DNA of 21,242 bases, taken from a virus. Below the pieces are notes generated by a model, which saw only the letters and a list, made by a program, of their open reading frames with translations, was not told the origin of the DNA and did not search any database. The translations under genes were made by a program, and so were the position numbers. Shown here piece after piece: positions 6,648-21,242 of this stretch. Each line of letters opens with the position of its first letter. Within the stretch, counting starts at the first letter, position 1. The DNA lies in the IMG/VR virus record IMGVR_UViG_3300005613_000476, positions 1-21,242 of that record. One strand, 5' to 3'.

Positions 6648-7715
6648 TTAATTAAAAGAACTCATGATACCACCAAAAACATTTTTCATTCTTTGATTAA
6701 TTAAATCATTTACATAAGAATTCATGTAGGCATCAAAATCTTGTTGACTTCCACCAATCGGAGAAGTGTTTCCTGTAACGGGGTTCGTGGGCTGAATTGG
6801 AGCTGGAAGAGGTGTGCCTCCTATTGGCATTTGAGTTCCTGTCCCGTTTGGAAGTTGTGGACTAGGCGTAGGAGGAATCATATTTCCCATAAAAACATTA
6901 TCAGGCACGTTTGTTGTAAAATTAGGATTGGATTCAAGCGTTTTTGGAATATTTGTTGGAGTATATGTTCCTGGACCCATCGGTGTGCCAAGGTTACCAG
7001 GTAGGTCTATTCCGATTGGAGGAGCAGTTCCTCCACCAAGTACCATACCAGGATTCAATGGAAGTTGTGAACTAGGACCAGGAAGAGTTGCATTTCCTAC
7101 AAAAACATTATCAGGCATACCAGGAGGTGTTGGAACTTGTGGTAATCCTGACATAATTCCTGCTGTACTATCTGGACTTTGAATAGCTAAAGGACCGAAA
7201 GCATTATTATAAGCTTCTTGTAAACTAACACCAGGAGCTAATTTAACCATTGCTCCGTATTGTTCCATTGTTGGAATAATTTTTTCACCACTAAAGTTAG
7301 GAGAACTAATAGGCCTTCTACCACCTAAAGTGCCTACGCTTCCAGGAGGATTGTAAGGTGTTCCGTCACCATAAAAATATCCGCCTCGTATTGGTCCATA
7401 ACCTATTTGCACACCTTCTGGAAGGGGCATGCCTACTATTGGCCTTGCCTTTATAGGCTCTAAAGCTCTTCTATTACCTAGGTCATATTGTGAATAATCA
7501 TCTTTATAAGTATTTAAATAATCTTGATAGGCTGAATCAAAAGCTTCTTGATTTGCAAATCTTTTATTAAATCCAAATTCATTTTGAGCTAAAGGTGTGG
7601 TTCGAGGGTCTTTCCTAGGTGGACTTGGTAGTGGTGTTATTGTTGGTGTCATTCCACCCGCTTGTGTTGCAGGGAATTGTCTTATATCTGGTGTAGAAGG
7701 AGAATTACTACCCAT
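6648..7715 (-). CDS. Proline/glycine-rich low-complexity protein, probable virion component
   Basis: A 355-residue protein dominated by Pro, Gly, Asn and Thr. A more ordered patch (about residues 45-90, FNKRFANQEAFDSAYQDYLN...) and a C-terminal amphipathic helix (QQDFDAYMNSYVNDLINQRMKNVFGGIM) flank two imperfect internal repeats of the type PDNVFxGNxxxPxPSxQLP (about residues 200-225 and 271-295). There is no recognisable enzyme motif. It shares its start style (MGSNS.., MGSSS..) and Pro-rich design with the 757-residue protein at 12243, so the two may be related in function. It may be an internal head or flexible tail component; inferred from late-operon position only. Confidence 0.68.
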   Translation of the reverse strand: MGSNSPSTPDIRQFPATQAGGMTPTITPLPSPPRKDPRTTPLAQNEFGFNKRFANQEAFDSAYQDYLNTYKDDYSQYDLGNRRALEPIKARPIVGMPLPEGVQIGYGPIRGGYFYGDGTPYNPPGSVGTLGGRRPISSPNFSGEKIIPTMEQYGAMVKLAPGVSLQEAYNNAFGPLAIQSPDSTAGIMSGLPQVPTPPGMPDNVFVGNATLPGPSSQLPLNPGMVLGGGTAPPIGIDLPGNLGTPMGPGTYTPTNIPKTLESNPNFTTNVPDNVFMGNMIPPTPSPQLPNGTGTQMPIGGTPLPAPIQPTNPVTGNTSPIGGSQQDFDAYMNSYVNDLINQRMKNVFGGIMSSFN

Positions 7716-16118: not shown

Positions 16119-16210
16119 CCCCTCCCTGGGTGGGGTTCAAGATACCCGATGTCACCCTCCCTGGGTGGGGTTAAATTTATATACCCAATGTCACCCCACC
16201 CTGGGTGGGG
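16119..16210. repeat. Three GC-rich palindromic repeats (family A)
   Basis: Copies at 16119-16135 (CCCCTCCCTGGGTGGGG), 16155-16170 and 16194-16210 (CCCCACCCTGGGTGGGG, a perfect palindrome around a central T) are separated by 18-24 bases containing the shared ATACCCRATGTCA. Unit spacing is 35 and 40 bp. The same elements recur at 18461, 18501, 19401, 20463 and 20495, always in intergenic sequence or at a gene 3' end, as in REP-type repeats. Confidence 0.9.
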
Positions 16211-16228
16211 ATAAATCATAATCACGAG

Positions 16229-16267
16229 TGCGACATTCTGTCGCAGTTAAGGTGCGACAATTTGTCC
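16229..16267. promoter_or_regulatory. Two TGCGACA-N3-TGTCGCA operator-like palindromes (family B)
   Basis: Site 1 (16229-16245) is TGCGACA-TTC-TGTCGCA, a perfect 7-3-7 palindrome followed by GTTAAG. Site 2 (16253-16267) is TGCGACA-ATT-TGTCC, one good half and one degenerate half, and abuts the -35 position of the early promoter. Site 1 fits the consensus I recall for RegA/RegR redox regulators of alphaproteobacteria (GNGRCRTTNNGNCGC). Confidence 0.7.
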
Positions 16268-16268
16268 A

Positions 16269-16297
16269 ATTTTAATTTCTGAAGAAAAGTTTATATT
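16269..16297 (+). promoter_or_regulatory. Promoter of first early gene
   Basis: The -10 is TATATT (16292-16297), and a weak -35 (ATTTTA, 16269-16274) lies 17 bases upstream directly after operator site 2. Predicted start is about 16304, immediately before the AGAAAGGATAA ribosome-binding leader. A weak -35 with an abutting palindrome is the layout of an activator-dependent promoter. Confidence 0.5.
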
Positions 16298-16318
16298 AAT
16301 ACTTAGAAAGGATAACTA

Positions 16319-16513
16319 ATGACACACAATTACATTGTTATTGAAACAACAAAGTATGGAAGTACATTTGTTAAAGGTGTTGCTGAAACTCTTAATGATG
16401 CCGAGAAACTTCAAAAGAGTTATATCGCAATCAACGAAGTATCAAAAGCAGTTGATGAGCAACCTGATGTTTCCATTTATGTCAGAGTACTTGATGAAAA
16501 TGGGGAAAGTTAA
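16319..16513 (+). CDS. Early hypothetical protein, 64 residues
   Basis: A 64-residue protein, MTHNYIVIETTKYGSTFVKG..., with an apparent beta-alpha start and the pattern DAEKLQKSYIAIN and DVSIYVRVLDENGES. It is acidic and soluble with no cysteine. The ATG is preceded by the recurrent leader AGAAAGGATAA with 6 bases between AAAGGA and ATG. It is first in the plus-strand cluster, and its last 20 bases overlap the start of the next gene in another frame. No family recognised. As the first early product it is a candidate host-takeover or regulatory protein; this is inference from position only. Confidence 0.72.
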   Translation: MTHNYIVIETTKYGSTFVKGVAETLNDAEKLQKSYIAINEVSKAVDEQPDVSIYVRVLDENGES

Positions 16514-16794: not shown

Positions 16795-16823
16795 TTGCAT
16801 TATGTGGGATATTCTGGTAGAAT
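16795..16823 (+). promoter_or_regulatory. Promoter fused with a 12-bp perfect inverted repeat
   Basis: The promoter has -35 TTGCAT (16795-16800), a 17-base spacer and -10 TAGAAT (16818-16823) with an extended TGG before it. The repeat GTGGGATATTCT-GGT-AGAATATCCCAC (16804-16830) covers the spacer and the -10, so a dimeric protein bound there would block polymerase. The same GGGATATTCTGG occurs as a single half in the promoter at 18601. The AGAAAGGATAA leader starts 8 bases after the -10. Confidence 0.65.
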
Positions 16824-16847
16824 ATCCCACAAGAAAGGATAAGGACA

Positions 16848-18374: not shown

Positions 18375-18409
18375 AAGGTGAGGGGATATCCCCTCACCTT
18401 TTCTTTTTA
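18375..18409 (+). terminator. Intrinsic terminator after 296-residue gene
   Basis: AAGGTGAGGGG-ATAT-CCCCTCACCTT is a perfect 11-bp stem followed by TTCTTTTT. It begins 8 bases after the TAA stop. It separates the upstream unit from the repeat-laden region 18420-18600. Confidence 0.9.
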
Positions 18410-18432: not shown

Positions 18433-18455
18433 GGAAACAGGCTACAAGCAACTAG
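18433..18455. repeat. Heptad repeat tract (family C, AGCNACA)
   Basis: Three degenerate 7-bp units (GGAAACA, GGCTACA, AGCAACT) precede two family A palindromes. The same heptads occur before the palindromes at 19401 and 20463. Confidence 0.6.
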
Positions 18456-18460
18456 TCCTC

Positions 18461-18517
18461 CCCCTCCCTGGGTGGGGGAAAATCCATATACCCAATTTCA
18501 CCCCTCCCTGGGTGGGG
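18461..18517. repeat. Two GC-rich palindromic repeats (family A)
   Basis: CCCCTCCCTGGGTGGGG at 18461-18477 and 18501-18517 lie 40 bp apart, with ATACCCAATTTCA between. The second is followed by AAAAATTTATAC, as at 20480. The 40-bp period equals the second spacing at 16119-16210, so the pair probably moved or duplicated as a block. Confidence 0.9.
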
Positions 18518-18533
18518 AAAAATTTATACTAGG

Positions 18534-18600
18534 TGCGACAATTTGTCACATTGACTTACAGGTGGTTTTATGTTAGGCGCAGGTGCGACAGTTTGTCGCA
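18534..18600. promoter_or_regulatory. Two family B operator palindromes, each with an abutting -35
   Basis: TGCGACA-ATT-TGTCACA (18534-18550) is followed directly by TTGACT. TGCGACA-GTT-TGTCGCA (18584-18600) is followed directly by TTGACC of the functional-looking promoter. The operator-plus--35 block is repeated exactly 50 bp apart. The upstream copy has no good -10 and may be a relic or a second binding site. Confidence 0.75.
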
Positions 18601-18629
18601 TTGACCTTTATGGGATATTCTGGTATAGT
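18601..18629 (+). promoter_or_regulatory. Strong extended -10 promoter with TTTATGGGA in spacer
   Basis: TTGACC (18601-18606), a 17-base spacer and TATAGT (18624-18629) preceded by TGG (extended -10). The spacer starts TTTATGGGATATTCT, identical to the box upstream of the minus-strand promoter at 2038. The leader AGAAAGG begins 7 bases after the -10. Confidence 0.8.
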
Positions 18630-18652
18630 AGTAAACAGAAAGGATAATGATA

Positions 18653-18877
18653 ATGTCTGATTTACAACACACTATCGAAGAACACGCGGGTGCTGCTGTT
18701 GAAGAAGCAGTCAATGATTATGATTTTGATCCCATCATTGAAGAAGCTATTCACAATTACTTAAATGACAACCCGGATGTTGTTCGATCAGCTGTAAGAG
18801 ACGCTCTGTCTACACTATCTTTAAATGATAGACAGGCTATCAAAGATCTGGTTGAATTATTAAACCAAGAAGAATAA
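18653..18877 (+). CDS. Early acidic helical protein, 74 residues
   Basis: The start ATG at 18653 is chosen over 18647 because it restores the usual 8-base distance from AAAGGA; the earlier ATG would sit only 2 bases from it. The protein (MSDLQHTIEEHAGAAVEEAV...) is strongly acidic and helical, with repeated Glu/Asp and Ala-Val helices and a C-terminal TLSLNDRQAIKDLVELLNQEE. Such small acidic proteins can mimic DNA or bind basic host proteins; that is speculation. No family recognised. It has its own operator-controlled promoter and is followed by a GC hairpin overlapping the next promoter. Confidence 0.7.
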   Translation: MSDLQHTIEEHAGAAVEEAVNDYDFDPIIEEAIHNYLNDNPDVVRSAVRDALSTLSLNDRQAIKDLVELLNQEE

Positions 18878-18883
18878 TTTATC

Positions 18884-18908
18884 TGGGAGGGCCTTGACGG
18901 CCCTCCCA
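18884..18908 (+). promoter_or_regulatory. 10-bp GC hairpin whose loop is the next -35
   Basis: TGGGAGGGCC-TTGAC-GGCCCTCCCA forms a perfect stem 7 bases after the preceding stop codon. Its loop holds most of the TTGACG -35 of the next promoter. No T-run follows. It may terminate weakly or protect the transcript end, and binding at this dyad could control the promoter. Confidence 0.6.
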
Positions 18909-18922
18909 TAAAATACTATAAT
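18894..18922 (+). promoter_or_regulatory. Consensus-like promoter with CCCATAAAAT box
   Basis: TTGACG (18894-18899), a 17-base spacer and TATAAT (18917-18922). The spacer carries CCCATAAAATACTATA, nearly identical to the promoter at 19454 (CCCATAAAATGCTATA), and TCCCATAAA is the reverse complement of the TTTATGGGA box. The AGAAAGG leader begins 6 bases after the -10. Confidence 0.75.
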
Positions 18923-18941
18923 AAAAGTAGAAAGGATAAAC

Positions 18942-19223: not shown

Positions 19224-19434
19224 AATAGTTAATCACGGAACGCTGGTCGGGTTCACCCCGGCCAGCGAAGACGCGCAGCAATGGTGGGACGAGCACGTCC
19301 AATGGTGCCCGATGATGGGCGATCAGTATCTGGTCGAATCGCGATACGCGGGCCCGATTCTGGAGGGTATAAAAGCGGCAAGCGACAAGCAACAGGCGGC
19401 CCCCTCCCTGGGTGGGGAAAAATTTGAACGCTAA
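19213..19434 (+). CDS. Conserved small protein with repeat-derived C-terminus, 73 residues
   Basis: The start at ATG 19213 has AGGGTGGG just upstream. The first 57 residues (MKFEIVNHGTLVGFTPASED..., then WWDEHVQWCPMMGDQYLVESRYAGPILEGIKAA) resemble a small conserved protein I recall from phages and plasmids (MKF-IVNHG-xVxFTP...WWDE...VExRYAxxIxxGI). The remainder, SDKQQAAPSLGGEKFER, is translated from heptad repeats and a family A palindrome, so a repeat has replaced or extended the original 3' end. It overlaps the preceding gene by 11 bases. Confidence 0.72.
   Translation: MKFEIVNHGTLVGFTPASEDAQQWWDEHVQWCPMMGDQYLVESRYAGPILEGIKAASDKQQAAPSLGGEKFER
19374..19417. repeat. Heptad tract plus family A palindrome inside a gene 3' end
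   Basis: Units AGCGGCA, AGCGACA, AGCAACA and GGCGGCC (19374-19401) run straight into CCCCTCCCTGGGTGGGG (19401-19417) and AAAAATTTG. This is the same order as at 18433-18517 and 20453-20480, but here it lies within coding sequence. Confidence 0.8.
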
Positions 19435-19437
19435 ACA

Positions 19438-19482
19438 TGCGACAATATGCGCAGTTAAGCTCATCCCATAAAATGCTATATT
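19438..19482 (+). promoter_or_regulatory. Degenerate family B site plus promoter
   Basis: TGCGACA-ATA-TGCGCA (19438-19453) is an imperfect operator. It abuts the -35 GTTAAG (19454-19459), which is 17 bases from the -10 TATATT (19477-19482). The spacer holds TCCCATAAAATGC. This matches the layout at 18584-18629. The AGAAAGG leader begins 11 bases after the -10. Confidence 0.65.
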
Positions 19483-19507
19483 TAATTATCTGTAGAAAGG
19501 ATAAAAG

Positions 19508-19690
19508 ATGAAAACTTTAAAAGTAAAAATAAAAAATGTTTATGGTAAAGAACTGGTTTACCCAGTCTGTCAAGATGCGAAAATTTTCGCTCAGCTCTCC
19601 GGCGCCTTAACGCTCAGTGATGGGGCCCGCCAGCTCATTAAATCTTTAGGGTACAAGCTGGAACAAGTGATAGAAGAGAAAACGCTATGA
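19508..19690 (+). CDS. Conserved small phage/plasmid protein, 60 residues
   Basis: A 60-residue protein, MKTLKVKIKNVYGKELVYPVCQDAKIFAQLSGALTLSDG..., ending in LIKSLGYKLEQVIEEK. The pattern 'NVYGxxxxYPxCxxAxxFAxLxGxxTLxxxxxxxIxxLG' is one I recall as a small conserved protein of unknown function in phages and plasmids. The AGAAAGGATAAAAG leader precedes the ATG. Its stop overlaps the start of the GP88-like gene by 4 bases (ATGA), so the two are translated together and may act together. Confidence 0.75.
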   Translation: MKTLKVKIKNVYGKELVYPVCQDAKIFAQLSGALTLSDGARQLIKSLGYKLEQVIEEKTL

Positions 19691-20295
19691 ACAAAAAAGA
19701 AGCTAATCAAATAACCGGAGGGCTATCGAAGCCCTCCAAGATGCCCGGATATGCCTATAATATACCCGCGACGCGCTGCAAGGTAGGCGCCAAGCTGGCT
19801 AAGGTTCCGGGTTCTGTTTGTCATGGCTGCTATGCCCTGAAAGGCAGGTATCGATTCCGCAACGTGAAAGAAGCATTGGAGCGCAGGTATCAGGCAGCAA
19901 TGAATAATAAACAATGGGTTTTCGGGATGGTTTATTTAATAAATACATCCAAGAAAAAAGAGTTTCGCTGGCACGACTCCGGGGACATCCAGTCCGCGGA
20001 CCACTTACAGCGGATCTTCCAGGTTTGCGAATTGACACCAGAAGTTAAACACTGGCTGCCGACTCGTGAGGCTGGTATCCTTTCTACAATCAAGCCGGAG
20101 GCAGTGCCGTCTAATTTAATTATTAGATTGTCAGCAACCAAGGTAGACGGACCCGCTCCGAAAAGCTGGGCCTGGACATCAACAGTTGTTACCTCCGGCG
20201 CATCGTGCCCCGCTCCACAGCAGGGCAACGAGTGCAAAGATTGTAGACAATGCTGGGACAAGAAAGTTAAAAACGTATCCTATGGCAAACACTGA
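19687..20295 (+). CDS. GP88-like cysteine-rich phage protein
   Basis: A 202-residue protein with eight cysteines (31, 45, 48, 114, 174, 183, 186, 189). Motifs are GSVCHGCYALKGRY (43-55), WHDSGDIQS (95-103), TPEVKHWLPTRE (117-128) and the C-terminal CPAPQQGNECKDCRQCW (174-190). The order C-x2-C, WHxSGD, HWLPTRE, C-x8-C-x2-C-x2-C resembles the family I recall as phage gene product 88 (GP88), whose biochemical role is not known to me. The cysteine set could hold Fe-S or zinc. It is 4 bases overlapped with the 60-residue upstream gene, and its codons are GC-richer than the left early genes. Radical chemistry is possible but unshown. Confidence 0.72.
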   Translation: MNKKEANQITGGLSKPSKMPGYAYNIPATRCKVGAKLAKVPGSVCHGCYALKGRYRFRNVKEALERRYQAAMNNKQWVFGMVYLINTSKKKEFRWHDSGDIQSADHLQRIFQVCELTPEVKHWLPTREAGILSTIKPEAVPSNLIIRLSATKVDGPAPKSWAWTSTVVTSGASCPAPQQGNECKDCRQCWDKKVKNVSYGKH

Positions 20296-20452
20296 TCAAA
20301 GACTCACACCAATGACAAAGATCCTGGCGGACCTCCGCCGGGATTTCTTGGCCCACGAGCCGGGGACCGAGGCCCAGGCAACAAGCTACAAGCTTTACGA
20401 AAAACATTTAAAGCTCCAAGCAACAGGCGTCATGTATGTACCAAAATTTTAG
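20282..20452 (+). CDS. Small hypothetical protein with repeat-derived C-terminus, 56 residues
   Basis: The frame MANTDQRLTPMTKILADLRR continues DFLAHEPGTE and then a tail QATSYKLYEKHLKLQATG translated from in-phase heptad DNA repeats (20377-20432). The start at 20282 overlaps the GP88-like gene by 14 bases; an inner ATG at 20312 is also possible, and neither has a clear ribosome-binding site. The first 30 residues look like a real helix-rich domain. As at 19213, the 3' end is overwritten by family C repeats. Real gene likely, exact start uncertain. Confidence 0.5.
   Translation: MANTDQRLTPMTKILADLRRDFLAHEPGTEAQATSYKLYEKHLKLQATGVMYVPKF
20377..20432. repeat. Eight in-register heptad repeats (family C)
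   Basis: Units of seven bases fit one register across 56 bases: GGCAACA, AGCTACA, AGCTTTA, two decayed units, AGCTCCA, AGCAACA and GGCGTCA. The register is kept through the decayed centre, which argues for an old tandem array rather than chance. Confidence 0.65.
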
Positions 20453-20510
20453 GCAACAGGTCCCCCTCCCTAGGGTGGGGAAAAATTTATACTACCCACC
20501 CAGGGTGGGG
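20453..20510. repeat. Heptads followed by two family A palindromes
   Basis: GGCAACAGG leads into CCCCTCCCTAGGGTGGGG (20463-20480, with one inserted A), then AAAAATTTATACTA, then CCCACCCAGGGTGGGG (20495-20510), then AAAAATC. The 3' copy is a perfect palindrome CCCACCC-A-GGGTGGG. The order repeats that of 18433-18530. Confidence 0.85.
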
Positions 20511-20529
20511 AAAAATCTAGGTGGTCAAA

Positions 20530-20580
20530 AATGTCGCACCTAGAAAATAATAATATCTTTATGGGATTTTCTGGTATAGA
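20530..20580 (+). promoter_or_regulatory. Half operator and promoter giving a near-leaderless transcript
   Basis: TGTCGCACCT (20532-20541) is one half of the family B site. The extended -10 TGG-TATAGA (20575-20580) has spacer TTTATGGGATTTTCTGG and a poor -35 (AATATC). With a start 6-8 bases after the -10, transcription would begin at about 20587, at or just before the ATG at 20589, and no AGAAAGG leader is present. Confidence 0.6.
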
Positions 20581-20588
20581 GTCTACCT

Positions 20589-20996
20589 ATGACCAAAACA
20601 CCAAAAACGATTGTTCATGTGAACCAACACATGATCAAGTACAACCAGAAACACGGCACGGAGTTTCCGGTTCTCACAGTGAAGCACCGAGGCAAGACCT
20701 ACTACGCTCACCAGGTCATTTATCACGATGGTTGCCAAACCATCTACCAACCAGAGAAGCCGCTGAGCTGCGGAGCTGTCTGCTGGATCGAGACTCACGG
20801 AGACGTGACTCTCTTCGACTGGACCGCGGTCCACAAAGAACCCCACCCGTCCCTCAAGCAGGAGCGCAAGACGCTGCGCCGGCTGGGTTCGCTGTCCTGG
20901 ACGGGCAGCGAGGTGGGAGAGCTGGTCAAGAATGCCGACCCGCGGTTCGATACCGAACTTCGTCAAACCATCGATCATTTCGAAGCTGCCCAATAG
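20589..20996 (+). CDS. Conserved phage/plasmid protein, 135 residues, possibly leaderless
   Basis: A 135-residue protein. The first 75 residues (IVHVNQHMIKYNQKHGTEFPVLTVKHRGKTYYAHQVIYHDG..., then PLSCGAVCWIETHGDVTLFD) match a small protein I recall from phages and plasmids (HVNQHxI...N...PVLTVK...YAxxVxI...LSCGAxxWIET). Function unknown. The remaining 60 residues (from about HKEPHPSLKQERKTLRRLG) are not part of that pattern and come from strongly GC-rich DNA, perhaps a later addition. No ribosome-binding site lies before the ATG, and the upstream promoter would place the 5' end at it. The stop lies in the terminator loop. Confidence 0.7.
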   Translation: MTKTPKTIVHVNQHMIKYNQKHGTEFPVLTVKHRGKTYYAHQVIYHDGCQTIYQPEKPLSCGAVCWIETHGDVTLFDWTAVHKEPHPSLKQERKTLRRLGSLSWTGSEVGELVKNADPRFDTELRQTIDHFEAAQ

Positions 20997-21016: not shown

Positions 21017-21242
21017 CCTACAGGCGACAAGCAACGAGCCACAAGCGACAAGCGACAGGCGTCAAGCGACCAGCTCTTCAAAAAATTTTTTCACGTTTTC
21101 CCATCCGGCGACGAGCGGTGGGTGGGTGGGCCCACAGGCGACAAGCTCGCGGATCGCGGACCCCGCATAAAGATTAGGGGACCGTGGACCGGGGGTCTTG
21201 ACTAGGATATAGCTCCCATTCGGATGCTTCGTATGGAACGCG
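21005..21242. other. GC-rich repeat-bearing end of window without a gene
   Basis: I see no supported gene in these 238 bases. They contain a heptad array (21023-21075), a G-run series GG-T-GGG-T-GGG-T-GGG (21117-21130) and several GGACC-type short repeats (about 21150-21195). A gene may start at the ATG near 21234, but too little is visible. Confidence 0.55.
21023..21075. repeat. Seven-unit heptad repeat array (family C)
   Basis: Consecutive 7-bp units GGCGACA, AGCAACG, AGCCACA, AGCGACA, AGCGACA, GGCGTCA and AGCGACC run in one register, the clearest array of this family. The core GCGACA also forms the half-site of family B operators, which may be coincidental. Confidence 0.8.

Follow-up and report, generated by a model that had tools for sequence, protein, structure and literature searches.

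Probable composite promoter cassettes before single small genes of HTVC023P-type pelagiphages

A succession of short motifs precedes a small gene of unknown function at 18653–18877 of a viral DNA fragment and recurs before other small genes nearby, which raises the question of whether the motifs form a regulatory unit and whether such a unit is mobile. The stretch analysed here (the window) is a complete IMG/VR record of 21,242 bases (IMGVR_UViG_3300005613_000476). Its terminase gene shares 72% DNA identity with that of phage 023Pt_psg01 and 70% with that of Pelagibacter phage HTVC027P, which places the window, on this sequence identity, as a fragment of an HTVC023P-type pelagiphage relative. 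Phages of this type are considered among the most abundant pelagiphages, and the SAR11 bacteria that pelagiphages infect are abundant too. Structural genes and the terminase are read leftward from 1–16.0 kb, and an array of small genes, divergent from the terminase, is read rightward from 16.1–21.0 kb. Pfam and PHROGs named only the structural genes and the GP88 gene (19687–20295), which is the sole array gene with a Pfam name, besides two PHROGs of unknown function, and the fragment has no replication module.

The first-pass annotation had placed ordered pieces at 18433–18660, 19374–19508, 20453–20591 and 16119–16319, and both the positions and the order were borne out. Heptads, if present, are followed by GC palindromes, an AT stretch, a TGCGACA-N3-TGTCGCA operator, a promoter with TATGGGA or TCCCATA in its spacer and, usually, a AGAAAGGATAA leader. 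The features are as follows.

16119–16211, plus strand: three GC palindromes (element B) at 35- and 40-bp spacing, no heptads
16229–16269, plus strand: two TGCGACA operators, at 16229 and 16253
16305–16315, plus strand: AGAAAGGATAA leader of the gene at 16319–16513
16795–16842, plus strand: stand-alone promoter and leader
18375–18400, plus strand: intrinsic terminator of the upstream 296-aa gene, AAGGTGAGGGG-ATAT-CCCCTCACCTT with a T-rich tail (11 pairs; -20.5 kcal/mol, z -3.85)
18439–18453, plus strand: degenerate heptads AGGCTACAAGCAACT
18460–18478, plus strand: element B, CCCCCTCCCTGGGTGGGGG, first of a 40-bp tandem pair
18501–18529, plus strand: second copy of element B, plus AAAAATTTATAC
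18534–18550, plus strand: operator TGCGACA-ATT-TGTCACA, abutting TTGACT
18584–18600, plus strand: operator TGCGACA-GTT-TGTCGCA, abutting the -35 TTGACC
18601–18629, plus strand: sigma70-type promoter TTGACC-N17-TATAGT with extended -10 (TGG) and TATGGGA in the spacer (10/12 matches)
18637–18647, plus strand: leader/ribosome-binding site AGAAAGGATAA, likely start ATG 18653
18653–18877, plus strand: small gene behind the main cassette, unknown function
18884–18939, plus strand: promoter in a hairpin, GGGAGGGCC-TTGAC-GGCCCTCCC, with TATAAT and leader downstream (z -4.09; 11/12 matches)
19374–19394, plus strand: three heptads
19401–19429, plus strand: element B plus AAAAATTTGAAC
19438–19453, plus strand: imperfect operator TGCGACAATATGCGCA beside a weak -35
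19464–19504, plus strand: TCCCATAAAATGC-TATATT extended -10 and AGAAAGGATAA leader of the gene at 19508–19690
20452–20510, plus strand: one heptad and two copies of element B at 31-bp spacing
20532–20580, plus strand: half-site of the operator (TGTCGCA) and a TTTATGGGATTTTCTGG-TATAGA promoter without leader; ATG 20589
21018–21146, plus strand: heptads plus a single copy of element A (GGGTGGGTGGGCCC, core at 21124), located at the array's 3' end and overlapping the end of an opposing VRR-NUC-like coding region

Element B, CCC[ACT]CCC-(T/TA/A)-GGGTGGGG, has eight copies in the window (16120, 16155, 16195, 18462, 18502, 19402, 20464 and 20495) and none in 200 dinucleotide shuffles, and the seven copies of the leader compare with a shuffle mean of 0.00. 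Within 16.0–21.2 kb, TGCGACA occurs six times, once inside a coding region (17589), against a shuffle mean of 0.24, and TTTATGGGA or its complement occurs four times against 0.08; two or more heptads in succession are found six times against 0.01. Hexamers resembling TTGACA-17-TATAAT precede the leader, with 11/12 matches at 18894 and 10/12 at 18601. The parts are of uneven quality: -35 hexamers are poor in two of the four cassettes (19438 and 20532), and heptads are weak at two (about two at 18440, one at 20452). The cassette is not a fixed whole: at 16795, 17426 and 18884, core promoter and leader stand by themselves, lacking GC element and operator. The leader sequence represents a conserved ribosome-binding site, AAAGGA plus TAA, and is not cassette-specific. 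At 18884–18922, a strong GC hairpin behind the upstream gene has the -35 in its loop, a possible terminator-promoter fusion. Around 20575–20589, a putative -10 TATAGA stands 8 nt before the ATG of the gene at 20589, and this transcript may be leaderless.

About 220 loci were then fetched via the terminase, the 296-aa gene, the GP88 gene and DNA patterns; with the 93-aa gene as query, the sole match was L003, a close relative carrying the same cassettes as the window. The relatives keep the order of the pieces, so that the proposed refutation, unrelated orders in related genomes, failed, and the claim of a recurrent, ordered regulatory unit before single small phage genes was supported. Around 106 non-redundant sites of element A, heptads lie upstream and immediately downstream, the -35 at +25 to +50 and the leader at +50 to +175, all on one strand. 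Relative to 256 non-redundant AGAAAGGA leaders, the peak for GC elements lies at -160 to -60, that for heptads at -100 to -40, and that for DnaA boxes and operators at -80 to -40, with TTGAC[AT] at -60 to -20 found 134 times in forward and 14 times in reverse orientation. Around both sets of sites the pieces are far rarer on the reverse strand, and of the heptad steps located up to 90 bp upstream of a -35, which 52 of 197 promoters have, 145 are forward and one is reverse.

The spacing is similarly constrained. Of the 17-bp spacers, 51% contain TGGGA or TCCCA, usually at offset 4, compared with 2.8% of random 17-mers. Operator and -35 are contiguous or 1 bp apart in five of six non-redundant cases. 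The full TGCGACA-N3-TGTCGCA palindrome also occurs in more distant relatives, often abutting TTGACA. DnaA boxes (the TTATCCACA nonamer), of which none was seen in the window's own cassettes, stand upstream of the -35 in relatives, for instance as TGTGGATAAC-TGGG-TTGACA; their distance from it is 5 bp in five of eight forward and 19 bp in four of ten reverse non-redundant cases. The place just upstream of the -35 holds heptads, a TGCGACA operator or a DnaA box. In a wider set, 231 of 289 non-redundant promoters had none of these three recognised motifs, so this slot is not universal.

The order of the pieces stood, but the composition of the unit is not fixed, as the GC element (A, B or none) and the site upstream of the -35 are alternatives. 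Most relatives carry element A (GGGTGGGTGGGCCC; GGGNGGGTGGGCCCAYAGGC) in place of palindrome B, which was found in three contigs only (the window, L003 and L113). In these relatives A is embedded in heptads and followed by a DnaA box, a TGCGACA site or heptads alone, and then by TTGACA, TCCCATA/TATGGGA, an extended -10 and the leader. A search of viral contigs for the exact B pattern gave eight matches, of which L003 alone is related and the rest look like chance. A more distant relative (L204) has a third type of GC element, (G)TGGGNCCCGCCCACAGG, before TGCGACA operators at 7271, 8785 and 9194. At the end of the opposing gene, VRR-NUC-like by eye (21062–21241, minus strand, in the window; 5142–5651 in L003), the window has A and L003 has B, and the C-terminal residues differ.

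Two simple identities for the GC elements were rejected. The GC elements do not look like intrinsic terminators, as the palindrome has no U-tract after it on either strand. A host-derived repeat was discarded as well, the long form of A being viral (present in 63 viral stretches) and a related pattern matching one contig in 84,980 GTDB genomes. That contig (PBPX01000001.1, in an Actinomycetota MAG) carries element A and a window-type phage terminase at 70% identity, and is therefore probably a misbinned phage contig.

Could the repeats instead be selfish or neutral, with heptads arising by slippage and GC elements spreading by gene conversion like REP or MITE sequences, and no regulatory role? 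Heptad number does vary between relatives, and the distance from A to the -35 favours 7-bp steps (13, 20, 27; 15, 22), which is what gain or loss of entire heptads would produce. The type of GC element is also mostly uniform within a genome and differs between relatives, and the window's A falls within the end of the opposing coding region. Neutral repeats would not, however, be expected to show the 145:1 strand bias, the fixed spot before the -35 or the confinement to the array, where A is restricted to one strand in 9 of 9 copies in a 55-kb record (G002) and 5 of 5 in 50 kb of 023Pt_psg01. The arms of palindrome B are moreover kept between the window and L003 while its centre changes (T, TA, A). 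Selfish or neutral repeats appear a quite unlikely explanation.

The suggested mobility of the cassette is hinted at by individual pairs of phages but does not reach significance over the whole set. Across 66 contigs, 408 of 721 homology endpoints (57%) fell in the 28% of array length that is intergenic. Relative to random intergenic positions, endpoints showed no concentration at heptads, GC elements or leaders (z 0.4–2.0), and GC-bearing junctions were not more variable than others (Fisher p 0.42–0.55), gene calling by script in these shuffling tests being crude. The intergenic excess could nevertheless reflect promoter, terminator and GC/heptad elements acting as homology patches or insertion units that swap genes or their control, as promoter early stem-loop (PeSL) cassettes may do in T4-like phages, and some pairwise comparisons fit such exchange. 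Between the window and L095, whose 296-aa genes are 95% identical, homology stops at the stop of that gene (18365) and at heptads (19394 and 20453) and restarts at gene starts or leaders (18938, 19493 and 19687) or heptads (21018); one of the two phages has A and the other has B. Two contigs that are 99.2% identical overall (L102 and L103) differ between the -10 box and the leader after the 296-aa gene, and gene order in the array varies between relatives. Faster intergenic divergence alone, however, yields endpoints of this kind, and together with the null results at the elements themselves this leaves a mobile cassette as a somewhat unlikely explanation.

I consider it probable that the motifs form a composite single-gene promoter cassette of HTVC023P-type pelagiphages, in which accessory genes are read singly by host RNA polymerase and tuned by an upstream slot. 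Every small gene of the array would possess its own host-type (sigma70) promoter, TTGACA-N16/18-(TGn)TATAAT, whose spacer contains TATGGGA or TCCCATA, and a strong ribosome-binding leader of its own, AGAAAGGATAA. A regulatory slot near -45, directly upstream of the -35, would hold heptads (AAGCNNC), the 17-bp palindrome TGCGACA-N3-TGTCGCA or a DnaA box, and further upstream would lie a lineage-specific GC-rich element (A, B or none). The sequences show that the parts are conserved and exchangeable and that their order, strand and spacing are kept; binding proteins, the sign of regulation and the role of the GC element I infer from this layout. Host RNA polymerase would transcribe each gene separately, and timing would be set by a protein that occupies the -45 slot and touches the polymerase: a phage regulator in the case of TGCGACA, or host DnaA in the case of TGTGGATAA, the latter a reading taken from the consensus nonamer only. 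Such a protein would more likely be an activator where the -35 is weak, and the weak -35 by the operator at 19438 favours activation. The spacer site may be a second site, of repressor type, and a second, repressing site is suggested by inverted repeats over the -10, such as the perfect repeat TGTGGGATATTC-TGGTA-GAATATCCCACA at 16803–16831 (z -5.25), similar to repeats in L024 and L133. The GC element might be a further oriented protein site or an insulator against upstream transcription, which is a guess. The regulator of the TGCGACA and GC sites is putative, and the B-type contigs are fragments.

Silencing of the array by a phage repressor bound to the B palindromes and TGCGACA would be a different use of similar sites. 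It recalls cluster A mycobacteriophages, whose stoperators (asymmetric sites at which a repressor halts elongation) are likewise many, dispersed, intergenic and lineage-specific in sequence; dispersed palindromes in short intergenic regions, in tandem at 31–40 bp spacing, would fit. The window sites, unlike stoperators, are tied to promoters at fixed distance, with TGCGACA abutting the -35 on its upstream side and not overlapping the core promoter, and no integrase or repressor appeared in searches of the fragment or in the isolate annotation examined. A stoperator-like system is accordingly very unlikely. Morons of lambdoid phages resemble the genes served by the cassettes in having their own promoter and terminator, and differ in lacking a shared repeated cassette.

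Parallels to the composite promoter cassette come from two further systems. In cluster K mycobacteriophages, single genes are preceded by ESAS/SAS elements, which combine a promoter, an inverted repeat whose sequence is specific to the subcluster, and a conserved leader (Pope 2011, PMC3203893; PMC11373665). As in the window, these are dispersed, intergenic, single-gene units with a sigma70/SigA-type promoter, an inverted repeat (ESAS) and a start-associated leader (SAS), and the consensus of the repeat depends on subcluster as A and B do on lineage. According to these accounts, however, the ESAS repeat lies within a 46–47-bp promoter motif, whereas the palindrome here abuts the -35 upstream; heptads, GC elements and DnaA boxes are not among the elements that these accounts describe, and host and sequences differ. 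The leader is AGAAAGGATAA, and the SAS consensus GGGATAGGAGCCC was not found just upstream of starts; the likeness is a functional analogy only. PeSL cassettes of T4-like phages are promoter-terminator composites implicated in gene shuffling (Arbiol 2010, Comeau 2014, as cited in PMC4503421), described as lying between small genes in variable regions. The hairpin with promoter at 18884–18939 is formally alike, an intergenic composite of promoter and stem-loop terminator, and a terminator at 18375 lies upstream of the main cassette; the likeness is by description, not sequence, and the window adds upstream elements. The cassettes thus work like ESAS/SAS and PeSL but have a leader that is not SAS, which makes them a variant of a known cassette type; the idea has been described before, and the composition found here seems to be new.

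A further reading is that the slot is interchangeable: one core promoter would accept heptads, a phage operator or a host DnaA box at -45, a lineage-specific GC element would spread through a genome's cassettes by conversion, and genes would be re-timed by swapping the slot. This I regard as speculative and, on balance, unlikely.

No promoter motifs of pelagiphages were found in the literature search, and the papers examined on HTVC023P-type phages do not mention promoters; the literature examined likewise gave no mapped transcription start. A link to expression that supports the composite single-gene cassette is offered by the cultured phage HTVC027P, in whose whole genome heptads run straight into TTGACA at two promoters only, those of gp34 and gp33. 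These two genes make up the whole of an extra temporal expression cluster that peaks 6–9 h post infection (infection RNA-seq, PMC12753301), and gp33 is a homologue of the window's GP88 gene at 55% identity. The match is correlation, not proof: gp33 lies next to gp34, and their position, not their promoters, may account for the timing that they share. With a concrete promoter grammar, the timing of transcripts in SAR11 infections could be predicted from sequence, and the heptad promoters of gp33 and gp34, together with the DnaA-box promoters, would show whether the host replication initiator or phage regulators time the accessory genes.
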